32,111 bases of DNA from an uncultured Alistipes sp. GTDB lineage: Bacteria > Bacteroidota > Bacteroidia > Bacteroidales > Rikenellaceae. A model generated the notes under the pieces. That model ran no database searches. It was not told where the DNA came from and saw only the letters and a list, made by a program, of their open reading frames with translations. Numbering within the stretch: the stretch's first letter is position 1; each line of letters begins with the position of its first letter. Positions 2,131 to 8,600 of the stretch are shown here, piece after piece. The DNA lies in the NCBI GenBank assembly GCA_947178455.1, contig CAMWYI010000003.1, positions 1 through 32,111 on the forward strand. Direction: 5' to 3'. Made by a program: the position numbers and the translations under genes.

Positions 2131-2535
2131 ATGGCTTTTCTTAAAGAGTTCAAGGAGTTCGCCATCAAAGGCAACGTGATGGACATGGCCGTCGGTGTCA
2201 TCATCGGCGGGGCGTTCGGCAAAATCGTTTCGTCGATGGTCAACGACATTCTGATGCCGCCCATCGGGGCATTGATCGGCAACACCGATTTCACGCAGTT
2301 GAAAATCGTCTTGAAAAAGGCGGTCGAGGGCGGCGAGCCCCTCACGTGGAATTACGGCAACTTCATCCAGCAGTGCGTCGATTTCACGATTTTGGCTTTC
2401 TGCATCTTCATGATGGTCAAGATGATGAACAAGCTCATCAAGAAAAAGGAGGCCGCTCCTGCGCCCGCTCCGGCTCCCTCGAAAGAGGAGCAGTTGCTCG
2501 CCGAAATCCGCGACCTGCTGAAAGAGAAAAAGTAA
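2131..2535 (+). CDS. mscL: Large-conductance mechanosensitive channel MscL
   Basis: [46 protein letters not shown] is the canonical MscL N-terminus; charged C-terminal helix present. Confidence 0.97.
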
Positions 2536-2600
2536 GAGGCAGCGGCTGACGGAGTTTTTCAGACGCTCTCCCAAAGCCTGCCGCGTCAACGCTGTTATAC

Positions 2601-2640
2601 AAAAACGACCCTGTTGCATTTGTGCAACAGGGTCGTTTTT
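2601..2640 (+). terminator. Intrinsic terminator downstream of mscL
   Basis: Perfect 18-bp stem AAAAACGACCCTGTTGCA / TGCAACAGGGTCGTTTTT with TTTG loop, ending in T-tract. Confidence 0.9.
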
Positions 2641-2659
2641 GTCGGTAGACGCATAAAAA

Positions 2660-2691
2660 TTTGGCAGTATTTGAAAATGTCGCTATCTTTG
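2660..2691 (+). promoter_or_regulatory. Bacteroidota-type promoter for the structured RNA/lipoprotein unit
   Basis: TTTG (2660-2663) - 20 nt - TATCTTTG (2684-2691). Confidence 0.7.
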
Positions 2692-2696
2692 CCACG

Positions 2697-2924
2697 CATT
2701 GCCGAATAGGCAATGTTCGGATGGCATTTAGGCTATTGCAGAACTGAAAAACGACCAATTCTTCAAGTACACACGCAATAGGCACGATGAATGCCCCGCT
2801 GTATGGCGTGGGTTGTGCTTATGTGTACAGGTGCTTGGTCGTACCTTCAGTTTGAAGCATCAACCCACGTTTCGATTTAGTTGAACGGTTGTCATTCGAT
2901 GACGACAATGGCATTGCGCAATGC
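2697..2924 (+). ncRNA. Candidate structured RNA (rod-shaped, 6S-like) or long structured 5' leader of the lipoprotein gene
   Basis: Nested complementary segments: AACTGAA 2742-2748/TTCAGTT 2846-2852; ACGACCAA 2751-2758/TTGGTCGT 2835-2842; GTACAC 2767-2772/GTGTAC 2823-2828; GCAC/GTGC; ATGCC/GGCGT. Flanking hairpins at 2697-2715 and 2888-2906. Begins just after a consensus promoter. The 3' end is uncertain. Confidence 0.55.
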
Positions 2925-2959
2925 ACAAATAAACGTTTAACTAAAATCTAAAAAACACC

Positions 2960-3346
2960 ATGAAAAATTTATTTTTGGCGTTGGCGGCAGTAGCTGCAAT
3001 CGCTTTCGTCGGCTGTTCGAAAGACGACGACAACAACAAATCCACCGGTTTGGTCGGTACATCTTGGACTTATTCCGAATCGTATCCTTCGTCATCGTTG
3101 ACCGAAACTTTACAGTTTCAGAGCGGCGGCGTAGTGATTTGGTCGGGACAGTATACGGAATCCGGATACGGAACGGAAAAATACTCCAATGTCGGTTCCT
3201 ATACTTATGAAGCATCTGAGGTTACGATTCGCATCGTCCAAGACGATGAGTACGGAGCAGATGTATATACCGGCAAGGTGGAAGGAAAGAATCTGGTCCT
3301 GTACAATACGTATGGAAGCGTTTACGGAACTTTTCGGAAGAACTGA
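2960..3346 (+). CDS. Small predicted lipoprotein
   Basis: MKNLFLALAAVAAIAFVGCSKDDDNNKS: signal peptide with lipobox FVGC followed by an Asp-rich stretch; beta-rich remainder. Confidence 0.85.
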   Translation: MKNLFLALAAVAAIAFVGCSKDDDNNKSTGLVGTSWTYSESYPSSSLTETLQFQSGGVVIWSGQYTESGYGTEKYSNVGSYTYEASEVTIRIVQDDEYGADVYTGKVEGKNLVLYNTYGSVYGTFRKN

Positions 3347-5357: not shown

Positions 5358-5462
5358 ATGCGACATACGACCCTGCACCAGACTTTCGGTAAGCGCCGAC
5401 GGGGGGGGGTAGCGCAGCCGTATAACGCAATGTCGTATTGCGCACGAAGTTCGGCAGAATAA
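5358..5462 (+). CDS. Candidate 34-aa small ORF containing a G9 tract
   Basis: ATG about 17 nt after a -7 box; MRHTTLHQTFGKRRRGGVAQPYNAMSYCARSSAE; stop immediately followed by a terminator. Coding status unproven. Confidence 0.3.
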   Translation: MRHTTLHQTFGKRRRGGVAQPYNAMSYCARSSAE

Positions 5463-5621: not shown

Positions 5622-8600
5622 ATGCGTATGAAGAAATTATTGCTTCTCGTGTTCTCGACAGTTGCCTTTTGCGTCGCACAGGCGCAGGTGACGACATCGA
5701 GCATCCATGGCAAAGTTGTGGATGACAACCGCAAGCCGGTAGTCGGCGCAACCGTCATTGCCGTACACACGCCGACCGGAACGGAATATGCCGTTGCGAC
5801 CAGCCGGGACGGTATGTTCAACCTCGGCGGTATGCGTGTCGGCGGCCCGTATGACATTACCGTCAGCTTCGTCGGTTGCAACGATGAAAAGTACAGCAAT
5901 GTGTATTTGACCATCGGCGAAGATGCCCAGTTCAACACGACGCTGCACGAATCATCGACCGACATCGGCGAAGTAGTCGTCATGGGAACCGCCAATCCGG
6001 TGTTCAACTCCAACCGCACCGGTGCACAGGAAATCATTTCCCGCGACATGATGGACAAACTTCCGACCGTCAATCGTTCGTTGACCGATTACACGCGTCT
6101 GACTCCGATGTCGAGCGGCTCGAACTTCGCCGGTACGTCCTATCGTTTCAACAACGTGACGGTCGACGGTGCGTCGTTCAACAACTCGTTCGGTCTTTCG
6201 GCTTCGTTGGGTGCCAGCGGCATCGAACCCATTTCGCTCGAATCCATCGAGCAGGTGCAGGTGATGATTGCTCCGTTCGACGTCCGAAACGGCGGCTTCA
6301 CGGGCGGCGGTATCAACTCTGTCACCAAATCGGGTTCCAATGAGTGGGAGGCTTCGGCTTATTTCTATAAAAAGAGCCCCTCGATGACCGGTTACCGCGT
6401 GAAAGATTACATCGGTACGGTAAAAGAGTTTACCAGCAACCAGTACGGCTTGAGCTTGAGCGGCCCGATTATCAAGAACAAATTGTTCTTCTTCCTCAAC
6501 GGCGAATTGGACCGCATCGAGGAGCCGATCAATTACACGACGAAGAACTCCGTTCCCACGCCGGAATCGCTGCAAGATCTTTCCAACTTCTTGGGCGACG
6601 AACTGGGCTACAATCCCGGTGCATTCGACTTGTCGAAAACCGAGACTTACGGCGACCGCATCACGGCCCGCGTAGACTGGAACATCAACTCGAAAAATAC
6701 GTTCTCGGTCAAGTACTATTATCTGAAATCGTACAACACGAACAGCCCTTCGACTTCCGGCAAACCGGCCAACGGTCGTGGCCCCAACGCCTATGCCATC
6801 CCCTACTCGTCGAGCTTCTACCGCACGAACAACAACTTCCACATCGTCATGGCCGACCTCAATACGACCGTGAACGACCGTATGTCGAACACGTTGAAGT
6901 TCGGTTACTCGCGTCTGCGCGACTATCGTGACATGGACGGCGGTTTCTTCCCGCAAGTCGATATTCTGAAAGACGGCAACAGCTATACCGTATTCGGAAC
7001 GGAAGCCAACTCTTACAACAACCAGTTGGATACCGACATTTTCCAGATTCAGGACAACTTCACGATTAATGCAGGCAAGCATCAAATCGTCATCGGTACC
7101 CAATCCGACTATCGTAGCTTCAAAAACGGATTCGCCCAGAACTTCCCCGGAACTTGGGTATTCTCGTCGATTGACGACTTCAAATTCAACGTGCTGGCGT
7201 CGAAGCAGTATCTTGCACAGCACGGCTCGATGGAAGGATTCAACATTACGAACTTCAATCCGGCCGACTTCGGTCTGACGGGTGTCGTAAACAACGGTTT
7301 GGCAAACTCGGCCGGTACCGGATACACCTATTACAATCAGAAATTCACGAACTCGGAGAAATATAGTTCGTTCCCCTTCGCCGAAGTGAATGTCGTTCAG
7401 CTGGGCTTCTATGTTCAGGACAAATGGGCTCCCTCGCACAAATTCAACCTCACTTACGGTTTGCGCGTCGACGTACCGATTTTCGTTACCGACCTGCCGA
7501 CCAACGACAAAGTCGCCGGTGCGACCTTCCGCGACGGTATCAAAATCGACGTGTCGAAATACCCGAACGCGCACCCGCAGTTCTCGCCGCGTCTCGGCTT
7601 CAACTGGAAACCGCTTGAAGACGGTTCGCTGCAAGTACGCGGCGGTACGGGTCTTTTCTCCGGTACGCCTCCGTATGTATGGATCAGCAATCAGGCCGGA
7701 AACAACGGCGTACTTTTCACCGACGTGAATCTCAGTGGCAATGCGCTCCAAAACCTCGGCTTTACCGGCAATATCGACGAATACAACTGGATGGCCAAAG
7801 CCGCCGGTGCCGCTGATATTTCGATTACCGACCCCGATTTCAAATATCCGATGCTGTGGAAGACCAATGTCGCTATCGACTACAAATGGCGCGGCTGGGT
7901 GTTGACTTGGGAAACGCTTTACAGCAAAGATCTCAATGCCATCTACCACGACAACATCAACCTCGAAGTAGCAGACCAAAATATCAACGACGGTGCCCCC
8001 AACAGCAAACGTACGGCATTCACCGGCAACTACATCAGCAACGGCGAAGGTGCTAACAGTGTCGTGATGTTGCGCAACACCAGCAAAGGTTATTCGATTT
8101 ACAACACCATCCAGTTGCAGAAATCGTTTACCGAAGGTCTGTTCCGAGGCTTGGGCATCAACGCATCGTACTCGTTCGGTACTGCTCGCAGTGTAACTGA
8201 CGGTACATCTTCGGTTGCCTTGTCCGCATGGAAATACACGCCGAAAGTGGCTGTGAACAGCGAAGAGGTAGGTTATAGCGCCGGTGCATTCGACGGTCGT
8301 CTGCTCCTTTCGGCCTACTACACGGCTCGCTGGGGCAAACACGGTGCTACGAACATCGGTTTGGTTTACCAGCGCTATCGTCCGTACCGTTATTCCTATT
8401 GCTATGACGGAGATGCCAATGGCGACAAACAAACCGCGAATGACCTGATTTACATTCCGCGCGACCGCTCGGAAGTAGAAGGACACTTGGTAAAAGGTTC
8501 GTTCGGCAGTGTCGACGAAGCATGGGAGGCAATGGATGCTTTCATCGCACAGGATGCCTATCTGTCGAAACATCGCGGCGAATACGCCACCCGCAACGGC

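Follow-up and report, generated by a model that had tools for sequence, protein, structure and literature searches.

A structured RNA between mscL and a lipoprotein gene of an uncultured Alistipes: a multicopy candidate attenuator leader of the Bacteroidota

The window, i.e. the whole stretch of 32,111 nucleotides that was analysed (contig CAMWYI010000003.1 of an uncultured Alistipes sp.), carries a structured RNA, preceded by a Bacteroidota-type promoter, between mscL and a gene for a small lipoprotein (Table 1). The lipoprotein has no Pfam match; a weak match, below the cut-off, is to the PG1828 family lipoprotein. The gene mscL ends in a hairpin terminator of its own, in the stem of which AAAACGACC/GGTCGTTTT look like the P3 strands of the RNA. 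This likeness is probably a coincidence, because in the closest relative found (G188, mscL 92% identical) the terminator stem after mscL is unrelated. Farther along the window, a homopolymer of about 10 G (5400-5410) lies between an AI-2E transporter gene and a gene starting at 5622.

The original prediction had placed at this locus a consensus promoter, a 7-bp hairpin at the 5' end of the transcript, a long interrupted rod of nested complementary segments and, farther downstream, an 8-bp hairpin and a palindrome. The promoter elements TTTG and TATCTTTG are found at or very near the places given, as are the nested segments AACTGAA/TTCAGTT, ACGACCAA/TTGGTCGT, GTACACA/TGTGTAC, and GGCAC/GTGCT. 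The 5' hairpin is present as P1, which probably sits at the inferred start of transcription, and the downstream hairpin and palindrome are located as claimed, between the RNA core and the lipoprotein ATG. A further segment, ATGCC/GGCGT, was right in that pairing exists there but imprecise, being better described as GCCCCGCT/GGCGTGGG (P6). Absent from the prediction were the pseudoknot partners, the ability of AACCCACG to pair with CGTGGGTT, and an outer linker stem that encloses both downstream hairpins and ends 14 nt before the ATG. The linker stem is taken from the fold, its comparative test being confounded by overlapping segments; the GTTAAAC..GTTTAAC of the linker is found again in the window-type copies.

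Table 1. Features of the mscL-lipoprotein locus (positions in the window).
Feature	Position	Strand	Basis or remarks
mscL, upstream neighbour	2131..2535	+	Pfam MscL, 7.3e-48
Hairpin terminator of mscL	about 2602-2640		sequence
Promoter, Bacteroidota-type	TTTG 2660-2663, spacer 20 nt, TATCTTTG 2684-2691	+	sequence
Structured RNA core	2693..2870	+	matched by models R1 (166.9 bits) and R2 (157.9 bits); scores not independent, because the window copy is among the R1 training sequences
P1, 5' hairpin CATTGCC-GAATA-GGCAATG	2697..2715	+	two-sided changes in 8/8 modelled pairs
P1b, hairpin GATGGC/GCTATT	2720..2737	+	96.2% paired, without two-sided changes
PK1, GCATT (P1b loop side) with AATGC	2724-2728 with 2790-2794	+	pairs covary
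PK2, TATTGC with GCAATA	2734-2739 with 2775-2780	+	pairs covary
P2	2742-2748 with 2846-2852	+	two-sided changes in 6/6 pairs
P3, ACGACCAA/TTGGTCGT	2751-2758 with 2835-2842	+	two-sided changes in 5/8 pairs
P4, GTACACA/TGTGTAC	2767-2773 with 2822-2828	+	two-sided changes in 4/4 pairs
P5, AGGCAC/GTGCTT	2780-2785 with 2815-2820	+	two-sided changes in 4/7 pairs
P6, apical hairpin, CCCCGCT with GGCGTGGG	2794..2812	+	two-sided changes in 5/7 pairs
P7, CGTGGGTT with AACCCACG, then TTTCGATTTA; terminator-like	2807..2879 (2807-2814 with 2862-2869)	+	96.7% paired; two-sided changes in 4/8 pairs
P8, AGGT with ACCT, P3 strand in between	2829..2846 (2829-2832 with 2843-2846)	+	89.9% of cells paired; two-sided changes in 2/3 pairs
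Linker stem TTTAGTTGAACG/CGTTTAACTAAA, 12 bp	2876-2887/2934-2945	+	fold of 2875-2964, -23.7 kcal/mol
8-bp hairpin	2888-2906		
Palindrome	2911-2924		
Small lipoprotein gene, 128 aa	2960..3346	+	gene downstream of the RNA

The fold is more stable than its shuffles for both segments analysed (z = -3.1 for 2697-2930 and -3.4 for 2730-2870), and no shuffle was as stable. In an alignment of 63 sequences, 95.5% of the cells in the rod together with P1, P1b, PK1, and P8 are paired, and 37 of the 55 pairs vary on both sides; these counts lean towards the rod because the alignment was fitted to a model containing P1-P6. None of 500 shuffles reached any of these measures, and sliding the partners by 1-3 columns left about 36-47% paired. 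The alternative pairings (PK1+PK2 and P7, together with P1 and P8) exhibit two-sided changes in 22 of 36 pairs, with 93.7% paired; PK1+PK2 and P7 lie outside the covariance models, and are therefore free of the alignment-fit bias. As an example, one pair in PK1/PK2 is UA in 29, CG in 18, and GC in 8 sequences.

In an alignment-free swap test (four groups, 300 swaps), each member receives one strand from another member of its group. For P2, P3, P4, and the 5' arm (PK1+PK2), the own partner beats 300 of 300 swaps in three divergent groups, and for the 5' arm none of the 300 swaps reaches the own pairing in any of the four. The signal is modest for P7 (z = -2.0 to -3.9) and weak for P8 (z = -3.3 to -1.8), which shows none in the window type. 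Among the paired positions, G-U occurs 364 times versus 19 for A-C; therefore, the selected molecule appears to be RNA of this strand, not DNA. This asymmetry, like the fixed orientation of the copies, speaks against a DNA hairpin or an integron attC site. The linker motif GTTAAAC/GTTTAAC presumably resembles attC core motifs, but its order is reversed and it is missing in the divergent members.

A structured RNA between mscL and the lipoprotein gene is real, and the long interrupted rod that had been claimed is supported by strong covariation in P2-P6 among the 63 homologues and, for P2, P3, and P4, by the swap test. The comparison of homologues shows the predicted rod P2-P6 to be kept through compensatory changes, and the 5' arm (P1b region) to pair into the bulges of the rod. 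These 5'-arm pairings could be a double pseudoknot within the rod, or an earlier alternative helix. When successive prefixes of the window copy are folded, the 5'-arm pairing is predicted to appear at 120 nt, before the rod, which is predicted for lengths of 140 nt and more, an order consistent with a co-transcriptional decision. Because the pairings lie in the rod bulges, however, they may belong to one pseudoknotted fold and represent no rival state, in which case the switch model discussed below would depend on competition between P6 and P7 only. These two helices have one strand in common, the 3' strand of P6 (family GCGTGGGY) being the 5' strand of P7, and the P7 partner strand (RCCCACGY) lies just 3' of P2 and is followed by U's in the family consensus. 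From these features P7 may be, with weaker support than any other helix, an intrinsic-terminator-like stem.

The RNA belongs to a large family. A search with the DNA sequence revealed one more copy in this assembly, besides copies in nine further genomes of the genus; the sampled genomes of other genera gave none. In the alignment of these copies, a TAnnTTTG promoter precedes a core of about 180 nt, from which a linker leads to an ATG; the genes that begin there differ. A pattern scan of named genomes yielded at least 80 loci, mostly in Alistipes, Tidjanibacter, and other Rikenellaceae MAGs from herbivore guts, with matches in Alistipes sp. Marseille-P5061 and an Alistipes senegalensis MAG. 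With two covariance models (R1, from 12 sequences, and the broader R2, from 63), the RNA is found in 142 of 268 genomes (13 of 22 genera) of the own family, 150 of 394 genomes (96 of 207 genera) of the own order, 58 of 293 genomes of the own class, and 27 of 299 genomes drawn from the phylum, six of these outside the own class. The large searches scored the best 6-9 candidates per genome, so that copy numbers are lower bounds; in the own genome, which was scored more fully, there are 18 places at E ≤ 0.001 and 20 at E ≤ 0.002, the E-values being rough since they come from a short calibration. As a control for false positives, 150 kb of E. coli DNA scanned with R2 gave nothing, even with the threshold relaxed to E = 10. 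An origin from phages or plasmids was rejected, as BLASTN gave no match in phages with the window-type or the divergent probe, and none in plasmids with the divergent probe. At two loci copies appear to stand in tandem: two full ones in a row at G878:C103:29783-30257, and at L166:1200-1340 a truncated one that follows the first and carries a terminator-like hairpin of its own.

The position of the copies relative to genes is regular. The TAnnTTTG promoter is present at the 5' end of 154 of 181 members, compared with 7% in shuffled flanks. The 10 nt after the core are T-rich in all five sets (T fraction 0.58-0.78, versus 0.20-0.31 nearby), and the median distance from the core to the next start codon is 56-75 nt. 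The original prediction had seen no clear terminator before the lipoprotein gene; this is apt for the window copy, the U-tract of which (TTTCGATTTA) is poor, but in the family a stem followed by a U-run is found there. An ATG-initiated ORF of at least 90 aa starts on the same strand 20-120 nt downstream of 119 of 157 testable copies, and the mirror arrangement is seen in 10 of 157. It is this placement, along with the covariation, that supports the riboregulatory leader which had been offered as a fallback, and a conserved structured domain, as expected of a riboswitch, does lie on the mRNA strand within the 5' leader. A leader role does not extend to all copies, since 9 of 18 testable divergent copies in the own genome have no ORF in the expected place.

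The downstream genes share no family. Their products (123 proteins) fall into 57 Pfam families, the commonest of which, Lipocalin_4, accounts for four, and scans with Pfam, NCBIfam, PADLOC, and PHROGs revealed no common family. They therefore give no hint to a ligand, and guessing one from them was abandoned. By a crude signal-sequence rule, which makes the figures rough, 68% of the downstream products look exported, compared with 29% of the remaining nearby ORFs (odds ratio 5.3; p = 8e-17, a value that is optimistic because many sequences come from related genomes).

The RNA matches no known class. The window has no match to 6S, 6S-Flavo, or Bacteroidales-1 at the gathering score, and these models find nothing in 2400-3100 even at E up to 10. 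Nor is there a 6S match elsewhere in the assembly, although at 81% completeness this is not decisive about 6S RNA in the organism. Instead of the stand-alone gene in one or two copies expected of 6S RNA, there are about 18-20 copies in the genome and most testable family members lie directly upstream of a same-strand ORF, and the 6S RNA of the original prediction was therefore rejected. A scan of about 80 loci with the 4227 models of Rfam 15 gave no convincing match over the RNA, and known cis-regulatory and riboswitch classes were likewise set aside. The only overlaps are sub-threshold and implausible, namely a plant microRNA model at L174 (E = 0.011) and L20_leader at L204 (E = 0.14). One locus of the own genome also has a SAM-II riboswitch (RF01726, 68.8 bits; L205:897-957, contig C9), an ordinary known element. 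No description of the RNA was found in the main texts of open-access papers. Fremin and Bhatt (2021; PMC8040213) predicted structured-RNA candidates from human microbiomes in a screen that covered Alistipes; the sole Alistipes motif named in the main text is 49 bp long and precedes ribosomal protein L20, and their candidate models could include the present RNA.

Because P6 and P7 share one strand, and P7 is followed by U's, a riboswitch-like attenuator is proposed. With a probability of roughly 0.6, the RNA is a cis-acting leader with its own promoter that decides on transcription into the single gene behind it, and it is probably an on/off switch for that gene. Since P7 with its U's is terminator-like, P6 belongs to the conserved rod, and the strand is common to both, the two outcomes would exclude each other. 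When the sensor domain is folded and stabilised, P6 would keep the common strand, P7 would be blocked, and the gene would be transcribed; when it is not, P7 and the U-run would end transcription after about 190 nt. This direction of control is a guess. In the window-type copies, translation may be controlled as well, by the second stem before the ATG. Candidates for the signal are a small molecule, an ion, a protein, or a physical cue. The knotted, sensor-like domain makes an orphan riboswitch the most natural guess, though no more than a guess. More tentatively, and with the odds somewhat against it, the RNA may represent a phylum-wide class of orphan riboswitches in the Bacteroidota, in which a double-pseudoknot sensor, present in about 20 copies here, ties the expression of accessory exported proteins to a single cellular signal that they have in common, and moves with their genes as a leader-plus-gene unit.

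In G188, pyc is followed without interruption by mscL and the ion channel gene; neither the RNA nor the lipoprotein gene lies between them. The site of the second window-type copy is similar: oxyR and trpS lie within about 100-600 nt of each other in relatives with both genes in view, and none of the 17 oxyR-trpS loci searched with the model has the RNA. From these empty sites it seems that this lineage acquired RNA and gene together, as a unit. The RNA accompanies only some homologues of the window lipoprotein: a copy is found in the fetched flanks of 10 of 29 loci, and in six or seven of these ten it is directly upstream. In the own genome, one subtype is scattered between genes as a repeat of about 200-220 bp, its copies being 76-89% identical and often followed by no ORF (L205, L208, L214, L216, L217, and L219-L222, on the contigs of G000). 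Other short repeats lie around these loci.

Empty sites for both window-type copies, the dispersed subtype that often lacks an ORF, and a highly diverse cargo might all be expected if the RNA were part of a mobile or dispersed element (promoter and RNA with an arbitrary cargo ORF, or the RNA alone) whose structure serves mobility. This is a live but improbable alternative, as the orientation and the distance to the ATG are consistent, compensatory G-U changes indicate that selection acts on the strand of the RNA, neither a transposase nor end repeats came to light, and the empty sites are accounted for if small genes were gained horizontally together with their leaders. Somewhat less improbable, yet still unlikely, is a leader bound by a protein, in which read-through into surface-protein genes, or their translation, is governed by a Bacteroidota-specific regulator, e.g. 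a NusG-type antitermination factor. A common fate without a common family would fit such a global regulator, and long invariant stretches, e.g. ACGACCAA in the window-type copies, could be protein contacts; outside the window type, however, P3 varies freely with compensation (ACGACCAA, TCGCCA, CTGCCA), which points to structure, not sequence reading, at P3. Least probable by far is a free-standing RNA of about 180 nt that ends at P7 and acts in trans, 6S-like or otherwise, the gene next to it being there by chance. This reading is favoured by the terminator-like 3' end and by the copies without a downstream ORF, but a same-strand gene lies consistently at 20-120 nt, the linker of 60-90 nt in the window copy shows no second promoter, paralogues are many per genome, and a 6S match is lacking.

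If the attenuator reading is true, this is one of the commonest structured leader RNAs of the Bacteroidota, a dominant gut phylum, that is missing from Rfam, and it controls a large share of their lineage-specific exported proteins. About 20 loci in one small genome would then make up a ready regulon, and the structure could be put to the test in the hunt for the signal.

Compared with known systems, the RNA resembles 6S (RF00013), 6S-Flavo (RF01685), and Bacteroidales-1 (RF01693) in its interrupted rod of about 180 nt and its Bacteroidota promoter. It differs from them in having no sequence or covariance match, in being multicopy and directly upstream of genes, and in its bulges, which are partners in conserved pairing and not a mimic of an open promoter. 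With terminating riboswitches it shares the 5' leader position, the own promoter, a compact knotted domain, many loci per genome, and a strand common to an upstream helix and a terminator-like stem with a U-run; in contrast to these, it has no Rfam riboswitch match, its genes give no ligand hint, and switching is inferred only. The DUF805 and DUF805b motifs (RF03081, RF02914) are likewise cis-regulatory in the Bacteroidota, but are 35-68 nt long, unrelated in sequence, and present at few loci only. They occur between the RNA and the start codon at L009:1739-1774, L166:1341-1375, and L225:1738-1804, with a match of this type below the gathering score at L241:1767-1799. Some leaders may thus contain a pair of successive regulatory RNA elements, of which the DUF805 motifs look like the second.
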